Assembly (NCBI RefSeq): GCF_009189165.1
Contig: NZ_CP045118.1
Location: 1,116,001 to 1,180,000 of the forward strand
Direction: 5' to 3'
Origin: Pseudomonas sp. SCB32
GTDB lineage: Bacteria; Pseudomonadota; Gammaproteobacteria; Pseudomonadales; Pseudomonadaceae
DNA length: 64,000 bases
Part shown: in pieces, positions 36,651-47,072 of the stretch
Layout of the letters: each line of letters starts with the position of its first letter
How positions within the stretch are numbered: the stretch's first letter is position 1
The notes under the pieces: generated by a model
Databases searched by the model: none
What the model was told of the DNA's origin: nothing
The model's input: only the letters and a program-made list of their open reading frames with translations
Program-made: the position numbers and the translations under genes

Positions 36651-36816
36651 CGGACGGCGGTACGCGCTTCCAGACGGCCGAAGTGCGATAAGCATGAGTT
36701 TTCTTGTAAGACATTGCTGAAAGACTGTACTGCGCCCCACGTCGCTGCGAAGTTCATTTCTTCGTTGTACAAGAACGGTTACATTTGGCACCCGTTTGCA
36801 CGATCAAGGATTGTTC

Positions 36817-37629
36817 ATGCATCTCACGCGCCGGAACCTGTGTGCCGCTTCCTGTCTTCCAGCCTGTCTGCTGGCGGCCGTGGTCGCTGCCGAGCCGAGC
36901 GCCGAGCTGAGCAGTCCAACCGCCGGCTGGCGCTACTCCGGCCTGACCGATGACGTGAACGCCCCGCGCGTGGCTTATCCCACGCCGCCGATCGACCGTG
37001 GCGCCGTTCGTGGTCGCAGCCTGATCGAAGGCCACCTGCGCGAAGTGGCCGGCGTCGACCGCGCCCAACGCCTGGTCGTCAACGGCAATCCGCTGCCCCT
37101 GTATACCGACGCCGACGGCAAGTTCGTCCGCCCCTATAACTTTGGCGCGGGCAGCAACAGCGTCGCGGTGAGCAGCGACCAGGGCAAATCCCTCAAGCGC
37201 ATCCAGTTCTACGAGGCCAACAACGGCCGGGTGCCGCCACGCATTCGCCTGGTACTGGGTTGGAACGACCCCAAGGCGGAACTCGACCTGCATATCGTCA
37301 CCCCGGATGGCCAGCATGCTTTCTGGGCTCACCCGCGCCTGAGCAATGGCGGCGGCCTCGACCCGGATGGCGTCGACGGCCCCGGCCCGGAAATGTTCAC
37401 CATGGCCGCGCCGCTCCACGGCACCTACCTGGTCTACGTGAACTACTGGGGCAACTACAACGCCAGCCAGGGTTACAACTTCCAGGAAGGTAACCACGAG
37501 CAGGACGTGATCACCGCCGAGATCAACCTGGTGTTCAACGAAAACACCGTCAACGAGAAGCGCGAGACCTTCGTGGTGCCCATGCGCACCATCGGCGATC
37601 TGGTGCTGGTGAAGACCTTCAACTACTGA
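36817..37629 (+). CDS. magA: MagA, YfaP-like DUF2135 protein
   Basis: 270 aa exported protein, first gene of the mag operon. The N-terminus is a signal sequence with three Cys (NLCAASCLPACLLA), so lipidation is possible but no canonical lipobox is clear. The C-terminal DUF2135 domain contains LVLGWNDPKAELDLHIVTPD and GTYLVYVNYWGNYN. It is a clear paralogue of MagF at the other end of the operon. AAGGA six bases before ATG 36817 fixes the start. In P. aeruginosa the Mag proteins form a periplasmic complex around MagD. Confidence 0.85.
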   Translation: MHLTRRNLCAASCLPACLLAAVVAAEPSAELSSPTAGWRYSGLTDDVNAPRVAYPTPPIDRGAVRGRSLIEGHLREVAGVDRAQRLVVNGNPLPLYTDADGKFVRPYNFGAGSNSVAVSSDQGKSLKRIQFYEANNGRVPPRIRLVLGWNDPKAELDLHIVTPDGQHAFWAHPRLSNGGGLDPDGVDGPGPEMFTMAAPLHGTYLVYVNYWGNYNASQGYNFQEGNHEQDVITAEINLVFNENTVNEKRETFVVPMRTIGDLVLVKTFNY

Positions 37630-37667
37630 ATTCGCCCCTCGCAGGGATGACACGGGACAAGCGATCC

Positions 37668-39419
37668 ATGAGCGACAACACCCCCTCCATCAACCAAGAC
37701 AGCACTCCCACGCCGCCGGCTGCGCAGCCTCCTCGCCGCGGTCCGCTGATCGCCATCGGTGTGGTTGCCGCCGTACTGGTCGCCGGTGGTCTCGCCCTGG
37801 CCTTCGGCCTGATTCCGGCCTTCCACTCAGCGCCGGTGAGCAACCTGGAAGCGCCGGAAAACCCGGAGGTGGTGCGCGACCTGAAGCGCCCCGACGCCCT
37901 GATCGAGAGCGCCTCGCTCAGCCAGTTGCCCAAGGCCGTACTGGAAGTGCCGCTGCTGCGCGACGTGCTGACAGAGGACTTCGTCTTCTACTACGAGAAC
38001 AATGCCGACCGCCTGGGCCTGACCGGCACCCTGCGGCGCATCGTCTACGAGCATGATCTGAGCCTGAAGGACAGTGTCATCGAGGAGTTGCTCGACCAGC
38101 CGGCCCAGGTCGCCCTGTGGCACGGCGCCGATGGCCGCCTGCGCGACTTCATGGTGGTGCTGCGTCGTGGCGGCCTGGCCAAGCTCCTGGAGCCGCTGGC
38201 GAAAGTCGCTGCCGACGATAGCCAGTTGAAGAAGGTATCGGAGATCCAGGTGAAGGGCGCTGCCACGCCGGTCTACAGCCTGCGCTACGGCGCCGAAAGG
38301 AGTGTGCTGTTCATTTCCCGTGGCGATCAGATGCTGGTGCTGTCGAATCCGAAGATGCTCTTCCCCGCCGCCAATGAAGGCAGGTTGGGTGAGTCGGACG
38401 CCGCCATTGCCAAGGACCTGGGCACGCTCCTCGAAGGTGAGCCGCTGTTCGCCAAGGACTTCGGCCTGGAGCCGCGCGGCGAGTTGAAGCAGCGCATCAC
38501 CCTGGGTGCCGGTGCCCTTGCCATGGGCTACCAGCGTTTCATCCCGACCTTCGCCGGGGTTCGTTTCGAGCAGGGCAAGGAAGGCTGGCACAGCTACCTG
38601 GCGCTCAACGAAGTGGCCCGTCAGCCGGAACTGGATTTCACCCCTGTCTGGCAGGCCATGCCCATGGGCGCCAGCGCCTGCGTGGCGTTGCCGGTCACGC
38701 CGGGCCTGTACGACAGCATGCTGGTGAAGCTGGGCGCCGAACAGAAGATGGCCGCGGCCTTCTCCGAGCACCTCTCCGGCGCCGCCGGCCTGTGCTGGTA
38801 TCCGGATTCGCGCCTGCATTCGCCGCTGCTGGCGGTAAAGCTCGACGCACCCGCCAGCCCGGAACTGGACGAGCAGCTGGGCAAACTGTTCGGCAGCATG
38901 ATCGGCGCCTACGAGGCCAATGTGGAGGCGGGCGCCTTCGAGGTGGAGAGCCGCGCCGAGGGCGACGGCCGCCTGTGGCAGCGCCAGGTCAGCTCGCGCT
39001 TTGGCCAGTACCCGGCCAGCGAGGCGGAGAACCCCGATCAGGTCAGCGGTAACGGCTTCTTCCGCGTCAGCCTGCTGCGCGAGGGCAATACCCTGTTGTT
39101 CTCCATCGACGACAAGCTGCTCGACAAGGCTCGCAACACCCTTGCCAAGCGCTTCCCGCCGCTGGCCGACGTGCTGCCCAAGGATGCCCTGGTGCCCGCG
39201 TACCTCGCGCCCAAGAGCCTGTCCGAACTGCTCCAGAATGAAACCCTCGACAGCCTTCCGCAGGACATCGAGCCGGTGTTCCGCAATGCCGCCGACACGC
39301 TGCTCCTGCCGCGCCTGAAGACCCTCGCCGGCAACGGCTCCTACGCCCTGACCCTGCCTGCCGGCAGCGAGCCCGGTGGCGAGTGGCAGTGGCTGCCGCT
39401 GGACTGGAAGGCGCTGTGA
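37668..39419 (+). CDS. magB: MagB, DUF2138 inner-membrane-anchored protein
   Basis: 583 aa. A Pro-rich cytoplasmic N-terminus is followed by one membrane helix (about residues 26-47, [20 protein letters not shown]). A large periplasmic domain of DUF2138/YfaA-type follows, with [20 protein letters not shown] and [20 protein letters not shown]. No catalytic motif is visible. It probably tethers the complex to the inner membrane. The last bases overlap the GTG start of magC. Confidence 0.82.
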
Positions 39420-40048
39420 TCCGAAAGCCCCTCACGCTGCTCGCAGGTCTGCTCGTCGCCACGCTGGCGCAGGCGACGGAGCCTGCGCTGGATGCGCAGC
39501 AGACCCAGGTGTTCCGCGCCTGGTTCGTGCGCATCGCCGAGGAGCAGCTGCATCGCGGCCCGAACCCGCGCTGGTACCAGCAGGACTGCGCGGGGCTGGT
39601 GCGCTTCGCCGCCAACGAGGCGCTGAAGGTGCACGACGCCAAGTGGCTGCGCGCCAACGGCATGTCCAACCGCTACCTGCCGCCGGAGCTGGAGCTCACC
39701 GGCGAGCAGCGCAACCTGGCGCAAACCTGGCAGCAGGGCGGTGGCAAGACCGGCCCCTACGTCAACGCGATCAAACTCATTCAGTACAACAGCCAGCTCG
39801 TCGGCCGCGACCTCAACCAGGCGCGGCCGGGCGACCTGATGTTCTTCGACCAGGGCGATGACCAGCATCTGATGATCTGGATGGGCCGCGACATCGCTTA
39901 TCACACCGGCACTCGTACGGTGACCGACAACGGCATGCGCTCGGTCAGCCTGCAACAACTCATGACATGGAAGGACACCCGATGGATACCCGACGAATCC
40001 AATCCCAACTTTATCGGCGTCTATCGCTTGTCCTTCCTGACCCGATGA
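39416..40048 (+). CDS. magC: MagC, DUF1175 protein resembling an NlpC/P60 cysteine hydrolase
   Basis: 210 aa from GTG 39416 (overlapping the magB stop). A signal peptide ([13 protein letters not shown]) is followed by one domain. I read the NlpC/P60 pattern in it: Cys58 in [16 protein letters not shown], then [20 protein letters not shown] with His151, and a third polar residue His163 in AYHTG. That predicts a periplasmic peptidoglycan amidase or endopeptidase. The DUF1175 assignment is family knowledge; the enzyme reading is inference. It overlaps magD by ATGA. Confidence 0.8.
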
Positions 40049-43000
40049 ACGCGCTGCGCGGTATTGCCGCTGCCCTGGCCTGCGCCGGCCTGTTCGCCGC
40101 CGCCCCCGCAATCGTGCAGGCGGACGACGAGGTCCCGGCGAGCAACTACACGCCCATGGCCGGCGAGTCGTTCTTCCTGCTCGCCGACTCAAGCTTCGCC
40201 TCCGACGAAGTGGCCAAGGTGCGCCTCGAAGCGCCGGGCCGCGATTACCGCCGTTACCGCATGGAGCCATACGGCGGCGCGGATATCCGCGTCTACCGCA
40301 TCGACAAGCCGCTGGACTTCCTCAAGCGCCAGAAGAACCTGCACCGCGTGCTGTCCGAAGGGCAGTTCAAGGGCGAAGGCCTGTCCAACACCCTGGCCTA
40401 CCTGTGGGACAACTGGTACCGCAAGTCGCGTCGGGTGATGCAGCGGACCTTCTCCTACGAGTCGCGCAAGCAGGTCACCGAAGTGGTGCCGGAGCTGAAG
40501 ATGGGCAACGCCATCGCCGCGCCGACGCCCTATGATCCGCAACCGCAGTACGCGCCGATCCCCGGCCTGCCGATGGTCAGCCAGTTCCGCTACCCGCTGT
40601 GGGACGCCAAGCCCATCCAGCCGCCGAAGGACGTGACCCTGATGGGCTCGTCCAGCGAGTTCATCAACGTTGCGCCGGGCAACGTCTACGTGCCGCTGGG
40701 CAAGTTGAAGCCCGGCCTCTATCTGGTGGAAGCGCTGGTCGGCAAATACCGCGCGACCACCGTGGTGTTCGTTTCCAACAGCGTCGCGGTGAGCAAGATC
40801 GCCGGCAACGAGCTGTTGGTGTGGACTGCCCGCAAGCACGAAGGCACGCCAGTGGGGGGCGCCAAGGTGCTGTGGACCGACGGCCTGGGCGTGATGAGCA
40901 GCGGCAGCAGCGACGCCGACGGTCTGCTGCGTCTGCAGCACGTCAGCCCCGAGCGCTCCTTCGTGATCGGCGAGGACGAGGAGGGCGGCGTCTTCGTCTC
41001 CGAGAACTTCTACTACGACAGCGAAATCTACGACACCAAGCTCTACGCCTTCACCGACCGTCCGCTGTACCGTCCGGGCGACTGGGTGTCGCTGAAGATC
41101 GTCGGCCGCGAGTTCAAGAATTCCCGCGAATCGCAGTCGCCGCAGAGCGCGCCACTGCGCCTGTCGGTGATCGACGCCGCCGGCACCACACTGCAGACCC
41201 TGGATCTGAAGTACGACGCCAAGAGCGGCACCAACGGTCGCTTCCAGCTGCCGGCCAACGCCGTCGCCGGCGGCTACGAGCTGCGCTTCGACTACCGCGA
41301 CCAGACCTACAGCAGCGCCTTCCGCGTCGCTGAGTACATCAAGCCGCACTTCGAGATTTCCCTCGACCTCGCCAAGCCGGACTTCAAGACCGGCGAGCCG
41401 GTGAAGGGCAACCTGATCCTGCTCTACCCGGACGGCAAGCCGGTGGCCAACGCGCGCCTGGAGCTGAGCCTGCGCGCCCAGCAGCTGTCCATGGTCGACA
41501 ACGAGCTGCAGTACCTCGGCCAGTTCCCCGTGGAGCTGTCCAGCTCGGAGCTCACTACCGATGCCCAGGGCCGCGCTGCGATCGACCTGCCGGCGGCCGA
41601 GAAGCCCAGCCGCTACATGCTCACCGTGTTCGCCAGCGATGGTGCCGCGTACCGCGTGAAGACCAGCAAGGAAATCCTCATCGAGCGTGGCGCCGCGCGC
41701 TACCGCGTGAGCGCACCGCAGCGCTTCAGCGCCGCCGGTGACAAGGTCGAGTTCACCTATGCCGCTGAACAGCAGACGCAGGTCCTGCCCACCGCCTACC
41801 GCTGGCTGCGTCTGGAAGACCGCAGCAGCGGCGACGGCGCGGTGGCCGACGGCAAGTTCGCCATCACCTTCGACAGGCCCGGCACCTACAGCATCGAGCT
41901 GCGCGACAAGGCTGGCCAACTGCTCGGCGGTACCGGCCACTCGGTCAGCGGCGACGGCGTCAAGGCCGTGCCGGGTACCGTGGAGATCGTCCTCGACAAG
42001 GCCGAGTACAAGGCCGGCGAGGAAGCCCTGGCGCTGATCACCTTCCCCGAGCCGGTGGACGATGCTCTGCTCTCGCTGGAGCGCGACAAGGTCGAGGCCA
42101 CCGCACTGCTGTCCAAGGGCGGCGACTGGCTGAAGTTGGAGAGGCTCAACCCGACCCAGTACCGCGCGCGCATTCCGGTGAAGGCCGAATTCTCGCCGAA
42201 CCTGACTTTCTCCGTGCTCTACACCCGCAGCGGCGACTACAGCTTCCAGAACGCCGGGATCAAGGTCGCCGTGCCGCAGGTGGATATCGCCGTCAGCACC
42301 GACAAGGAACGCTACGAGCCGGGTGAGACGGTCACCGTCAACCTTGACACCACCTACGCCGGCAAGCCCGTTTCCAGCCACCTCACCGTGAGCGTGGTGG
42401 ATGAGATGATCTACGCGCTGCAGCCGGAGATTGCACCGGGAATCGACCAGTTCTTCTACCACCCGCGCCGCAACAACGTGCGCACCAGCGCCAGCCTGTC
42501 GTTCATCAGCTACGACGTCGCGCTGCCCGGCACGCCCAGCGCGCCCGGTCGCGCCAACCGCAGCGAACGTGGCGTGAAGGTGCTGGAGCGTCCGCGCCGT
42601 GAGGAAGTGGATACCGCCGCCTGGGAGCCGGAGCTGGTCACCGATGCCAACGGCAAGGCGAAGTTCACCTTCCGCATGCCCGACTCCCTGACCCGCTGGC
42701 GTATCACCGCCCGCGCCATGGATGACGAAGGGCAGGTTGGCCAGAAGAAGCAGTTCATCCGCTCCGAAAAGCCGCTGTACCTGAAATGGAGCGGCCCGAA
42801 ACGCTTCCGCACGGGTGATGCGCCGGACCTCGGCCTGTTCGTCTTCAACCAGGGCGAGCAGGACACCAAGGCCGAACTGCTGATTCGCGCCAACGGCGAA
42901 GAGAAGACCCAGGCGCTGGAGCTCAAGCGCGGCGTCAACTACATCGCCCTGCCGCAGCAGCCGCTGAGCGACGGTGACTGGAGCGTGGAGCTGCGCCAGG

Positions 43001-44598
43001 ACGGCCAGGTGCGCGACAGCCTCGGCGTGCACTTCAGCCTGGTAGCCGACAGCTGGCAGGTGCTGCAGTCCAAGCCGCTGCAGGTCAACGCGCAGAACAC
43101 GCCGCTGCAGCTGCCGGCGGATGCTCGTGATGTGACTCTGCGTCTGGACGACAGCGCTCAGGCGCTGCTGCGCGGCAATCTCGACTCACTGCTGAACTAC
43201 CCCTGGGGCGGCGTCGAGCAGACCGCCAGCCAGCTGCTGCCGCTGAGCATCGCCTACCCGATGCTGGCCAGCGGCGAGCCGCGCGTGCGCGACCGCCTGC
43301 GGCTGATCTTGCAGACCAGCCGCCTGCGCCTGGTGCAGATGGCCGGCCCGGATGCCTACTTCACCTGGTGGGGCGGCGAAGACAACGACGCTTTCCTCAC
43401 CGCCTACGCCTACTACGCCGACTGGTACGCCAGCCGCGCGCTGGAAATCCAGCTGCCGCCGGACCACTGGCAGCGCGTGCTGGAGCTGTATTCCGCACGT
43501 GCCACCGCCACGCCGCTGCTGCAGCGCGCACTGATCCTGGCCTTCGCCCGCGACATGCAGTTGCCGGTGCAGACCCTGGTCAGCGGTCTGCTCACCGACC
43601 TGGAAAACGCCGGCAACGGCGAGGCGGCGAAATCCGTGAACGACTTCGACAGCGTCGACAGCCTGGTCATGGGTCAGCCGGACTCCGAGCTGGGCCTGGC
43701 GGTCGCCCGTGTGCTGGCGGCCAGTCTGGCTGAGCAGAGCAAGGTCGCGCTGCCGCAAGGCTTCGCCAAGCAACTGGATGCCGCTCGCCTGAAGGTCAAC
43801 ACCAGTGAGCAGCCCTTCGCCCGCGCCGTGCAGCTCTACGGCGGCCCGCTGGATGCCAATCGCGCCCGCTCGCTGCTGTTGAGCCTGGCGCCGCAGCAAT
43901 CTACCGTCGAGCGCGCGCTGGCCCTCGCCTGGATGCAGCGGGCTGTGGCGGCCGCTCCCGCCGCGGAGCTGCCCAAGCCGGTGGCTGACTGGAAGGAAGG
44001 CCGAAGCACCACCGGTGACGCGTTCTGGAAGTGGCAGGGCAAGGACGTTCCGGCGCAGCTGGACCTCTCCGCCGCGCCGTCGCGCCCGCTCAATGCCTCC
44101 GTCACCTTCCGCAGCGCCGAAGCGCCGGCCAGCCAGTTACCGGTCACCATCAAGCGCCGCCTGCTGCGCCTGGTGCCGGGCGACGACGCCTTCGCCTTCA
44201 ACGCCGAGGAGCTGGGCGACAAGCCGCTGTCCAGCGACGAGCTGTATCTGGACGAAGTGACCCTGACCACCGAGCAGGCGCAAGCGCTGCGCTACGGCAT
44301 GCTGGAAGTGCCGCTGCCGCCGGGTGCGGATGTCGAGCGCACCACCTGGGGCCTGCAGATCAGCGGCCTGGGCGGCGTCGAGGCGACCAGCCTGGAGCGC
44401 GCGCGCAACGAGCCGGGCGACCTGTTCTACGGCGTGCCGATCGATACCCTGGGCGGCGAGTTGCGCTTCCGTCATCTGGTCCGTTTCTCGCAGAAGGGCG
44501 AGTTCGTCTTGCCGCCGGCACGCTACCAGCGCCTCTATGCGCCGCAGGAGCAGGCGCTGGAGCAGCAGCCGGCCCTGGCGAAGATCAAGGTCCAGTAA
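40045..44598 (+). CDS. magD: MagD, bacterial alpha-2-macroglobulin (YfaS type) lacking the thioester
   Basis: 1517 aa periplasmic alpha-2-macroglobulin. A signal peptide (residues 1-26, ending IVQA) is followed by tandem macroglobulin-type domains, a bait region and the A2M/TED domain ([20 protein letters not shown], then [20 protein letters not shown]). Where thioester members have CLEQ, this protein reads Gly1056-Val-Glu-Gln, so no thioester can form. That matches the non-capturing class described for P. aeruginosa MagD. Such proteins trap or sense proteases in the periplasm. No lipobox matching E. coli ECAM is evident. Confidence 0.9.
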
Positions 44599-44601
44599 TC
44601 C

Positions 44602-46251
44602 ATGCGTGCGTGCTTCGCCGGGCTGATCCTGCTGTTGCCGTTCTGTGCCTTCGGAGCGCCTGCTCTGGCACAAGGGCAGTCGGCGCAGCTGGCCTGGCGC
44701 AGCGCGCAGGGTGACGAACTGCTGCGCCTCGGGCCGCAGCAGGTACTCGATCGTCAGCCGTTGCCCGATGATCTCAAGACTCCGCTGGGCAGCCTGTGGA
44801 AGCTGTTCGTCTATGCCTGGCTGAACGATACCGGCCAGCAGGAGCCGGCCTACCAGTGCCGTGGCGAGAGCAAGGAAGAAGTCTATTGCTGTGCGGCGGG
44901 GCAGAGCATCGAGCGCGATGCCGCGCTGGTGAAGTCCTGTGGCCTGTACTTCCAGCCGCAGCGCCTGGGCATCGACGGCGAAGTCTGGCAGCAGTACTGG
45001 CAGGCGCGCCATGCCCCGGCCTGGATCGCGCAGCTGGACCGTCTGGCGCCGCAGACCGAAGTCCCGGTCGGCGAGTTGCTCGATCAGCTGCAGCACCTGC
45101 CCGCTCAGGAACAGGCGCAGAAGGTGTTGCTGGATGTCAGTCTCGCCGCCGACGAAGGCCGTGCCCCGGCCTTGCTGGGGGGACGCCTGCGGGTGAAGAC
45201 CTGGAGCTGGGATGAGGCTGGCAAGCGCGAAGGCGGCTTTGCCGGGTGGCTGGCTGACGGCACGCCGCTCTGGGCGCGCGGGCCGGGTACCAGCAAGACG
45301 GTGCTGGCGAATTACGGCAACGCCATCGGCGCTGCGCTGCCTGCTCCCTGGCCTCGTGATCCGGGGCGTTGCGTGGAGGTCAGCCTGTTCAGCCGCTATC
45401 CGCTGAAAGAGGTCTACGACGCGCGCAATCAGCCTGCCACCGAAGGCTTGCTGGACGGTTCGCAGAATGTCCTGTTCGCCAATGGCGTTCGGCTCGACGT
45501 GAACAGCCATGGCGATCTGTTCCTTGAGCGCGGCGCCGCTGGCCCGCGCCTGACTGCGCGCCTGTCCCGCGAGGAATACGTGGCCCGCGTACTCGACCGC
45601 GAGGCCTCCGCCACGCCGCCGGAAGCGGCCAAGGCGCTGGCGGTGACCATCCGTACCTACCTGCTGCAGAACGCCGCGCCGCGTGGTGACTGCCTGAGCA
45701 TCGATGACAGCAGCCAGCGCCAGCGCGTCGCACCGCGCCCGGCCAGCGAAGCTGCGCGGGGTATCGCCGCCTGGACCGCCGATCTGGTATTGGCTGGCGG
45801 CACTGTCACCTACCACTCGGACGAGGCGGGGCAGTCGAAATTATCCTGGCGCGACGCCCAGGAGCAGGCCGCCCAGGGGCTGCGCTACGACGCGATCCTC
45901 GCCCGCGCTTTCCCGCGCACCAGCCTGAGCCGCTGGAGCAACCCGTCTGCCGCGTGCCAGCCGCTGCCCGAGGCCGAGCGCTGGCTGCGGGCGCAGCGCC
46001 GCAATTGGCGGCCACGCCTGGAAGGCGAGCCGGGTTATGAGGAATTGCAGTCCTTCGCCGTGTGCCGCCTGAGCAGCGGACGGCCCTATGTCGACCGCGA
46101 ACGCCAGCGCATCTTCGTGCGTGGCCTGTACTCCCAGCAGGACCGGCTCGACCTGACTCATGAATACCTGCACCTGGCTTTCCAGGCGCACCCCAATGGA
46201 CAAGACGAGGGCTACGTGGAAAGCCTGGCCCGTCGCCTGATACTGGAATGA
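44602..46251 (+). CDS. magE: MagE, DUF2300 protein with PBP-like, SpoIID-like and HExxH segments
   Basis: 549 aa exported protein with a signal peptide (residues 1-23). Residues 58-240 follow a penicillin-binding layout: PLGSLWKLFVYAWLNDTG (Ser64-x-x-Lys67), VKSCGLYFQPQRLGID (where SCD/SCN is usual) and LRVKTWSWDE (where KTGT is usual). Residues 315-445 resemble SpoIID (REEYVARVLDREASATPPEA, KALAVTIRTYLLQN). The C-terminus has THEYLHLAFQAHP with His520-Glu521-x-x-His524 and a later Glu540, the layout of a gluzincin zinc site. The domain reading is mine; only DUF2300 is family knowledge. Confidence 0.82.
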   Translation: MRACFAGLILLLPFCAFGAPALAQGQSAQLAWRSAQGDELLRLGPQQVLDRQPLPDDLKTPLGSLWKLFVYAWLNDTGQQEPAYQCRGESKEEVYCCAAGQSIERDAALVKSCGLYFQPQRLGIDGEVWQQYWQARHAPAWIAQLDRLAPQTEVPVGELLDQLQHLPAQEQAQKVLLDVSLAADEGRAPALLGGRLRVKTWSWDEAGKREGGFAGWLADGTPLWARGPGTSKTVLANYGNAIGAALPAPWPRDPGRCVEVSLFSRYPLKEVYDARNQPATEGLLDGSQNVLFANGVRLDVNSHGDLFLERGAAGPRLTARLSREEYVARVLDREASATPPEAAKALAVTIRTYLLQNAAPRGDCLSIDDSSQRQRVAPRPASEAARGIAAWTADLVLAGGTVTYHSDEAGQSKLSWRDAQEQAAQGLRYDAILARAFPRTSLSRWSNPSAACQPLPEAERWLRAQRRNWRPRLEGEPGYEELQSFAVCRLSSGRPYVDRERQRIFVRGLYSQQDRLDLTHEYLHLAFQAHPNGQDEGYVESLARRLILE

Positions 46252-47072
46252 TCGCCATGAAACTCGCCCACGCGCTCCGCCTGTCCCTGCTCGCCAGCCT
46301 GATTCCGTGGGGCGTACAGGCTGCCGAATCGCCAATTCACTTCGACACGCCGGTAGGCGGCTGGCGAGCCGGTGATGGCGACAAGGCGGACTTCCGGCAG
46401 ACGGTGAACTATCCGGCGTCGTCGGTGAATACCCGTGCGGACCAGGCCGAGACCGCGCGCATCCGTGGCGAGATCCGCTCGCTGCCCAAGGACAACAAGG
46501 ACCCTGCGCGGCTGGTGGTGAATGGCGTGGCGATGCCGCTGAAGGTCGATGACAACGGCGGCTTCGACCGTCCCTTTTCCTTCCCGGCCGGCACCAACAG
46601 TGTCGAGGTGATTACCCCGGACGGCCAGCAGCGCAAGCGCGTGCAGTTCTACCACGGCGGTGGCGGCGGCGAGGTGCCGGCCAAGCTGCGCGTGCTGCTG
46701 TCCTGGGATTCCGACAACACCGACCTCGACCTGCACCTGGTCACGCCGGACGGCGGGCACGTCTGGTACGGCAACCGCTCATTGGCCAACGGCGCAACCC
46801 AGGATGTCGACGTGACCACCGGCTACGGTCCGGAAATCATCGCCAGCCCGACGCCGCTCAAGGGCCAGTACCTGGTCTACGTGAACTACTACGGCGGTGG
46901 CTGGAGCGAGGATGAAAGCTCGGGTGACGTGAATGCGGCCAAGCCGCTGACCACGGCGCAGGTGACCATCGTCACGGAGGAGGGGACGGTGAACGAGAAG
47001 CAGGAGAGCTTCCTGATCCCGATGCGCCAGCCGGGTGAGCTGACCCTGGTTAAGCGGTTCAGTTACCCGTAA
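46248..47072 (+). CDS. magF: MagF, YfaP-like DUF2135 protein
   Basis: 274 aa from ATG 46248 overlapping the magE stop (ATGA); ATG 46257 would remove three residues. Signal peptide to about AAESP. The C-terminal DUF2135 domain has LLSWDSDNTDLDLHLVTPDG and GQYLVYVNYYGGG, colinear with MagA, including the shared end TVNEKxExFxxPMR. It closes the operon; a REP pair follows. Confidence 0.85.
   Translation: MIAMKLAHALRLSLLASLIPWGVQAAESPIHFDTPVGGWRAGDGDKADFRQTVNYPASSVNTRADQAETARIRGEIRSLPKDNKDPARLVVNGVAMPLKVDDNGGFDRPFSFPAGTNSVEVITPDGQQRKRVQFYHGGGGGEVPAKLRVLLSWDSDNTDLDLHLVTPDGGHVWYGNRSLANGATQDVDVTTGYGPEIIASPTPLKGQYLVYVNYYGGGWSEDESSGDVNAAKPLTTAQVTIVTEEGTVNEKQESFLIPMRQPGELTLVKRFSYP

Follow-up and report, generated by a model that had tools for sequence, protein, structure and literature searches.

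The magE gene of Pseudomonas sp. SCB32 encodes a protein of three predicted parts, the last of which is built around an HExxH motif. Across the sequences compared, this C-terminal domain is the part common to all MagE forms found, and the two wall-related domains that precede it are optional. In several lineages, the magE slot between the macroglobulin gene and magF holds the HExxH domain alone, an arrangement that seems to be new. The domain most resembles the minigluzincin zinc proteases, if weakly, by two methods of comparison. Our preferred interpretation, to which we attach a probability of roughly 0.55, is that MagE is a periplasmic zinc protease that probably processes the macroglobulin MagD, with the SxxK and SpoIID-like domains adding peptidoglycan binding or sensing. 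The domain folds, motif conservation, operon linkage and solo forms on which this interpretation draws are each supported by the computations presented below.

The magE Gene and the Surrounding mag Operon

The window analyzed here is a 64,000-nucleotide stretch of contig NZ_CP045118.1. Within it, magE, the orthologue of E. coli yfaQ, occupies 44602..46251 on the forward strand (as do all features of the protein described below) and encodes, from an ATG start, 549 residues that share 55% identity with E. coli YfaQ over residues 20-549. Residues 1-24 (44602..44673) read by eye as a signal-peptide-like N-terminus, and E. coli YfaQ has been assigned a Sec signal peptide with an SPI site in the text examined of PMC12282094. 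The match of MagE to itself was the sole one in its own 6.31 Mb genome at E <= 0.001.

The gene order around magE (DUF2135, DUF2138, DUF1175, macroglobulin, magE, DUF2135) matches that of the six-gene mag operon as described in the available portion of PMC5764988. The order of E. coli yfaA, yfaT, the macroglobulin gene, yfaQ and yfaP is the same, with the first gene missing. Specifically, profile matches identify a first DUF2135 gene (36796-37629), followed on the forward strand by magB (DUF2138, 37647..39419) and magC (DUF1175 with an NlpC/P60-like match, 39383..40048). The magD gene (39967..44598, forward strand, from a putative start codon) encodes a type II alpha-2-macroglobulin with matches to Pfam MG2, A2M and A2M_BRD, and magF (46248..47072, forward strand) was recognized by its Pfam DUF2135 match. 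DUF2135 genes stand at either end of the operon, and the two look like paralogues. PADLOC returned nothing for four of the operon proteins, and a scan of viral contigs returned no relative.

With respect to MagC, the NlpC/P60 match is barely above its cut-off (23.2 versus 23 bits). Peptidases of the NlpC/P60 type have a Cys-His-His triad, with which residues C69, H162 and H174 of MagC, invariant in 16/16 aligned relatives, are compatible. MagC may be a second wall- or peptide-cutting enzyme of the mag operon.

Two Wall-Related Domains Precede the C-Terminus

The initial annotation had divided MagE into a degenerate penicillin-binding domain, a SpoIID-like domain and a zinc-protease-like motif, and the residues on which it relied lie in the 549-residue reading frame where it had placed them. 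These are S64-L-W-K67 (44791..44802), S112-C-G114 at the second-motif position (44935..44943), K199-T-W201 at the KTG position (45196..45204), EYVARVLDREA and KALAVTIRTYLL inside residues 322-356, and T519-HEYLH-LAF, with Glu540 located 16 residues past His524. All three domain calls are supported, the third of them with the lowest scores; for the first, the nearest solved folds are class D beta-lactamases and MecR1 sensor domains and not classical PBPs.

The N-terminal domain, spanning about residues 28-245 (44683..45336), was characterized through an AF2 model of mature MagE (mean pLDDT 81.5 and pTM 0.60, from 41 fairly similar rows; the other four models gave 72 to 60). In this model S64 starts a helix (residues 63-77, model numbering 39-53), K199 lies on a strand, H520-H524 are helical and the last helix opens with E536-E540. 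A Foldseek search of the model against the PDB gave 194 matches with E <= 0.001. Judged from their titles, the best 50 of these 194 comprise serine beta-lactamases (of class D and others), sensor domains of MecR1, a cephalosporin esterase and PBP-A, with TM-scores by target of about 0.5; because the rows lack a model range, they were assigned to the N-terminal domain by length (about 220-290 columns) and fold. The best match was OXA-23 (4jf4; E 9.6e-6, probability 1.00, TM by target 0.55). These model-based comparisons support an SxxK acyl-enzyme fold for the MagE N-terminus. A search of PDB sequences with an N-terminal profile yielded nothing convincing (one row, E 1.1), and the call of this fold thus rests on AF2, Foldseek and a published HHpred-based statement. 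Pfam searched at an E setting of 10, at which HMMER filters drop most weak matches, gave no transpeptidase or beta-lactamase match in MagE.

In terms of active-site residues, the resemblance to class D beta-lactamases and PBPs extends to the fold, the SxxK motif, the second-motif Ser and the KT on a strand, whereas the Gly of KTG is Trp or Phe in MagE, the second motif is SCG and no Pfam family of these enzymes matches. The second motif of SxxK acyl enzymes is of the SxN, SxD or SxV type; in MagE the Ser is kept and the third residue is Gly in 76/76 rows of our larger alignment. The KTG sequence itself was absent in every row counted, with KTW or KTF in its place.

The central SpoIID-like domain covers about residues 256-445 (45367..45936). 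Pfam SpoIID matches residues 318-374 at E 1.6e-6 and 29.1 bits, against a gathering score of 23, and a profile of the middle domain finds SpoIID proteins in the PDB at E 2.8e-4 (4rwr) to 2.2e-3. Alignments place E334 (45601..45603) opposite the Glu that SpoIID proteins have in their VASEM/LAGEM segment, a residue that we take to be catalytic in SpoIID. MagE falls far under the NCBIfam SpoIID_LytB cut-off (18.2 versus 83.3 bits).

The Pfam DUF2300 model has two strong stretches in MagE, at residues 88-207 and 413-532 (44863-45222 and 45838-46197 of the window). An internal duplication was considered and rejected on a profile-profile comparison (probability 0.6%). Given that the two regions are unrelated by this comparison, we treated the Pfam model as lumping different domains and not as marking a repeat.

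The C-Terminal HExxH Domain Weakly Resembles Minigluzincins

The C-terminal domain (residues 450-549, 45949..46248) carries the HExxH motif H520-E-Y-L-H524 (46159..46173). In the AF2 model and in alignments, this motif sits in a helix after a small sheet, as in gluzincins. Conservation and the AF2 model make E536 and E540 (46207..46221), two glutamates with which the last helix begins, the candidates for the third zinc ligand; they lie 12 or 16 residues past the second His, and both are kept. A separate AF2 model of a solo domain (L067) reached a pLDDT of 91.3 and shows a helix, three strands, the HExxH helix and the Glu helix.

With this solo-domain model, the best Foldseek match was selecase (E 0.015, probability 0.97), followed by abylysin (E 0.020, probability 0.96), both with E-values above 0.001. 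Ranks 1-14 comprise selecase, abylysin, jannalysin, IrrE/PprI and BepA, at E 0.015 to 0.18, TM-scores of 0.35-0.54 (selecase 0.45) and rmsd values of mostly 5-10 A. All of these are known, by title or otherwise, as HExxH metalloproteases. A zincin-core profile, searched against the PDB up to E 10, found selecase alone (E 0.03), aligned over a 23-residue stretch at the HExxH motif. With a longer alignment, selecase scored E 0.14, below rows of angiogenin; these angiogenin matches (best E 0.019) were rejected, as they start inside the HExxH motif, past its first His and Glu, and vanish with a shorter core alignment built from other rows. The resemblance to minigluzincins is drawn chiefly from the fact that two methods name selecase, neither score being enough singly.

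Selecase (MJ1213), abylysin and jannalysin, whose structures are archaeal by title, share with the MagE domain a length of about 100 residues and the HExxH motif. Unlike them, the MagE domain is predicted to be exported, has an invariant Cys pair, places its candidate ligand Glu just 12 or 16 residues past the second His, and is either joined in one chain to an SxxK and a SpoIID-like domain or found solo in a macroglobulin operon.

Conservation of the Motifs

A search with the whole MagE protein, in which the motifs were not used, gave 26 loci including that of the SCB32 genome itself. GSxWK, SCG, KT[W/F] and HExxH-x11-E-x3-E are each present in 26/26 of these loci, as is the SpoIID Glu in its sequence context. 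Among genomes above the cut-off of the Pfam model, HExxH-x11-E-x3-E is found in 15/15 (9 with full forms, 6 with solo forms), and the remaining motifs are found in 9/9 of the full forms.

A larger alignment of 123 full-length rows, reduced to 76 by removing rows more than 95% identical, is made up mostly of Pseudomonas, with E. coli, Serratia and members of three further families of the class also represented. Residues S64, W66, K67, S112, C113, G114, K199, T200 and E334 are identical in 76/76 rows. So are H520, E521, H524, P531, E536, E540 and R544, in rows whose picking used the HExxH pattern. Position 201 is Trp in 75 rows and Phe in 1, and a pattern count over 126 rows agrees, with 121 KTW and 5 KTF; this count takes in near-copies as well as L156, L157 and L159, which are more divergent. 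For both sets the script demanded HExxH with two Glu as well as [YF]VARV, and many rows of the 123-row alignment derive from an HEY[LV]H pattern scan; the unbiased positions of the 76-row set are those outside the selecting patterns, such as S64, K67, S112-G114, K199-T200 and E334.

Ser64, Lys67, His520 and Glu521, which the initial annotation had singled out, are therefore all kept across relatives. Its description of the second and third motifs as degenerate or damaged is contradicted by the same counts: since SCG and KT[W/F] equal Ser64 and Lys67 in invariance (76/76 rows and 26/26 loci), they are better described as a conserved variant.

Solo Forms and Linkage to the Macroglobulin Operon

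Of 398 genomes of the phylum, 15 exceed the DUF2300 cut-off, nine with both stretches, meaning full MagE, and six with a single stretch. The six one-stretch genomes all belong to one other class (6/48 of its genomes) and encode short proteins whose start is signal-peptide-like by eye. Their domain of some 105 residues retains both Cys, both Trp, the HExxH motif, the Pro, both Glu and the Arg. Further solo forms were found in Competibacteraceae (L067-L069, 3/40 genomes of the order), in Serratia microhaemolytica (L089) and in genome G880 (L158), the last from a set of 200 genomes of its own order whose 9 matches comprised 6 full forms, 1 solo form and 2 that were dismissed. Three candidates were rejected: L017 is under the cut-off and has 5 stops; L160 is a chance match whose frame reads by eye as another protein; and L161 is a different HExxH protein, with HEMLHLALRTH, a VWA-like part (by eye) and a weak zincin-profile match. 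Two further weak matches were L065 and L066 (E 2.9e-4 and 4.3e-4).

We examined the magE neighborhood in 21 loci. In nine of them (L054, L055, L056, L058, L067, L068, L069, L089 and L167) the solo HExxH gene lies between MagD and MagF, and in L053 and L057 it is accompanied by MagF, with the contig ending on the MagD side. The SxxK and SpoIID-like domains of MagE were not found in 11/11 solo genome handles, several of them drafts and two of them (G510 and the L067 genome) probably identical; the full-length control, G322, was detected both times.

A tree of 19 MagD rows requires, on well-supported branches, two or more switches between the solo and the full form; L167 is on a long branch and its placement is unsure. 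S. microhaemolytica, a solo species, is sister (100/100) to Serratia oryzae, whose MagE is full-length, so that the loss or gain of the wall domains within this pair was recent. The solo form may be ancestral, as the rows of the other class and of Competibacteraceae form one solo side of the midpoint-rooted tree.

The operon linkage of the domain was seen in two ways. DUF1175 (MagC), taken as the operon marker, occurs in 15/398 genomes, and these are the same 15 that have DUF2300. Moreover, a contig scan with the C-terminal domain gave 318 relatives, of which the best 80 (75 from Pseudomonas) were kept. Among these best 80 of 318, a MagD match lies within 2.5 kb upstream in 79 and the remaining one is at a contig edge, while MagF lies within 600 bp in 74 and is lacking there in 6. 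In these six loci (L070, L085, L090, L098, L119 and L122), MagD and MagE are present and the 600 bp that follow contain no MagF match. A control genome, that of Thermotoga maritima, matched DUF1175 and had no DUF2300 match, which indicates that the link is not universal and that such an operon may lack the protease-like domain of MagE.

Proposed Function of MagE and Alternative Interpretations

We propose that MagE is an exported, periplasmic three-part protein in which the C-terminal ~100 residues would form a minimal gluzincin-type zinc metalloprotease, with HExxH and a Glu on the following helix as its probable metal site. Among the forms found, this domain is what the occupants of the magE slot in type II macroglobulin operons have in common, and its most probable task would be to cut or mature the neighboring MagD, or another Mag partner. 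The SxxK domain, with its non-standard KT[W/F] groove, and the SpoIID-like domain would bind or sense peptidoglycan in those lineages that have them. Within this scheme, zinc binding, proteolysis, the role of MagD as substrate and peptidoglycan sensing are steps that we infer.

The published work on the operon bears on this proposal in several respects. According to the portion of PMC5764988 examined, MagD exists in 165 and 100 kDa forms and is strongly influenced by deletion of magB and of magE. Deletion of magE gave extra MagD forms of higher mass, read by the authors as signal-peptide-bearing MagD, and seems, per their discussion, to prevent MagD processing. An exported metalloprotease would also fit these effects, in agreement with the signal-peptide-like starts of the proteins. 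The enzyme that makes the 100 kDa form is unnamed in the text examined of that paper. Its account of magC is in conflict with itself, in that the 100 kDa form is gone in magB and magC deletions according to the Figure 6 legend, whereas section 7 describes the magC deletion as without pronounced effect. For YfaQ, transpeptidase-like and SpoIID-like parts have already been proposed (PMC12282094, in the text examined), the former N-terminal. The main text of that paper contains no words beginning 'zinc' or 'metallo', and neither a C-terminal metalloprotease nor solo forms appear in the text examined. A search of the macroglobulin and metalloprotease literature by title, with subscription papers mostly outside its reach, found none on the protease domain of MagE.

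Several observations weigh against a periplasmic protease. The authors of PMC5764988 considered MagE to be a cytoplasmic protein without stable association with the Mag complex, suggested for it a role in signal-peptide processing or as a chaperone, and found MagB to be a clear requirement for the 100 kDa MagD form (text examined in part). The Foldseek E-values above 0.001, the weak PDB sequence match and the occurrence of DUF1175 without DUF2300 in Thermotoga maritima point in the same direction. So does the phenotype of the E. coli yfaQ deletion, which, in the text examined of PMC12282094, widens the cells and groups with mutants of the envelope and of peptidoglycan, and hence directs attention to the wall and not to proteolysis.

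This phenotype, together with the transpeptidase-like and SpoIID-like domains proposed there, is the natural starting point for a different view, which we consider the leading alternative if still an unlikely one, namely that MagE/YfaQ works chiefly as an enzyme or remodelling factor of peptidoglycan, its SxxK and SpoIID domains acting on the wall and its C-terminal domain being a structural or regulatory appendage. The invariance of Ser64, Lys67, Ser112, Lys199 and E334 (76/76) is in keeping with such a role, as is the neighboring MagC, which also resembles a peptidoglycan hydrolase. The solo forms argue the other way, in that the wall domains were not found in any of the 11 solo handles and the HExxH domain is the part retained; the KTG position, moreover, reads KT[W/F] in all rows counted.

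A metal-binding chaperone or maturation factor that aids MagD export or signal-peptide removal without proteolysis seems to us less probable again. Signal peptides are normally removed by general signal peptidases, and Glu521, at the general-base position, is kept in 26/26 loci, although a pure metal-binding fold would not need it. The higher-mass MagD forms seen upon magE deletion (PMC5764988, examined in part) are what this explanation has in its favor.

The coupling of an SxxK domain to a metalloprotease-like domain in one chain also recalls BlaR1/MecR1, in which a class D-like SxxK sensor is joined to a metalloprotease that is switched on when the sensor becomes acylated (PMC9834060, examined in part). 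By Foldseek, the MecR1 sensor matched the MagE model at E 1.4e-4 and BlaR1 matched the solo-domain model at E of about 0.8; the gluzincin half of the likeness has weak scores. BlaR1 is a membrane protein whose cytoplasm-facing protease precedes the sensor, whereas MagE is predicted to be exported, ends with its protease-like part, has the two parts separated by a SpoIID-like domain and carries KT[W/F] for KTG. Domain order, location and groove residue thus differ, and the resemblance is best taken as an analogy and not as membership.

As a speculative and rather improbable extension of this analogy, MagE might be the activating protease of a complement-like system. It would serve as a BlaR-like periplasmic sensor-protease whose SxxK and SpoIID-like domains read exposed or damaged peptidoglycan and release a minimal zinc protease for the cleavage of MagD. 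Bacterial macroglobulins of type II are without the thioester, and such a thioester-less macroglobulin could be armed much as a convertase arms C3, with the solo form as an unregulated, perhaps ancestral, convertase.

The least probable suggestion, made in the initial annotation and in our judgment very doubtful, is that MagE stands in for PBP1c (pbpC), a neighbor of type I macroglobulin genes (PMC4498604 and PMC5764988, both examined in part), and it is unsupported because S. oryzae carries both full-length MagE and PBP1c (909 bits versus a cut-off of 494) and S. microhaemolytica, with solo MagE, has no PBP1c above the cut-off, the opposite of the prediction. In a set of 16 genomes, PBP1c exceeded the model cut-off in 0/9 with full-length MagE and in 4/7 with solo forms, as a replacement would predict; the combined counts become 1/10 and 4/8, which are small and come from related rows. 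The E. coli control genome also has a match to the PBP1c model, above or below its cut-off; in four solo genomes, which are drafts, PBP1c and the mag genes are on different contigs; a profile search found no glycosyltransferase match in MagE; and the magE slot of several lineages is without any SxxK domain.

The co-encoded and co-inherited HExxH domain is a direct candidate for the enzyme that makes the 100 kDa form of MagD. If our preferred reading of MagE as a periplasmic zinc protease is true, a domain of unknown function would become a new periplasmic protease family, and the wall-related domains would tie the state of the cell wall to the action of the macroglobulin.
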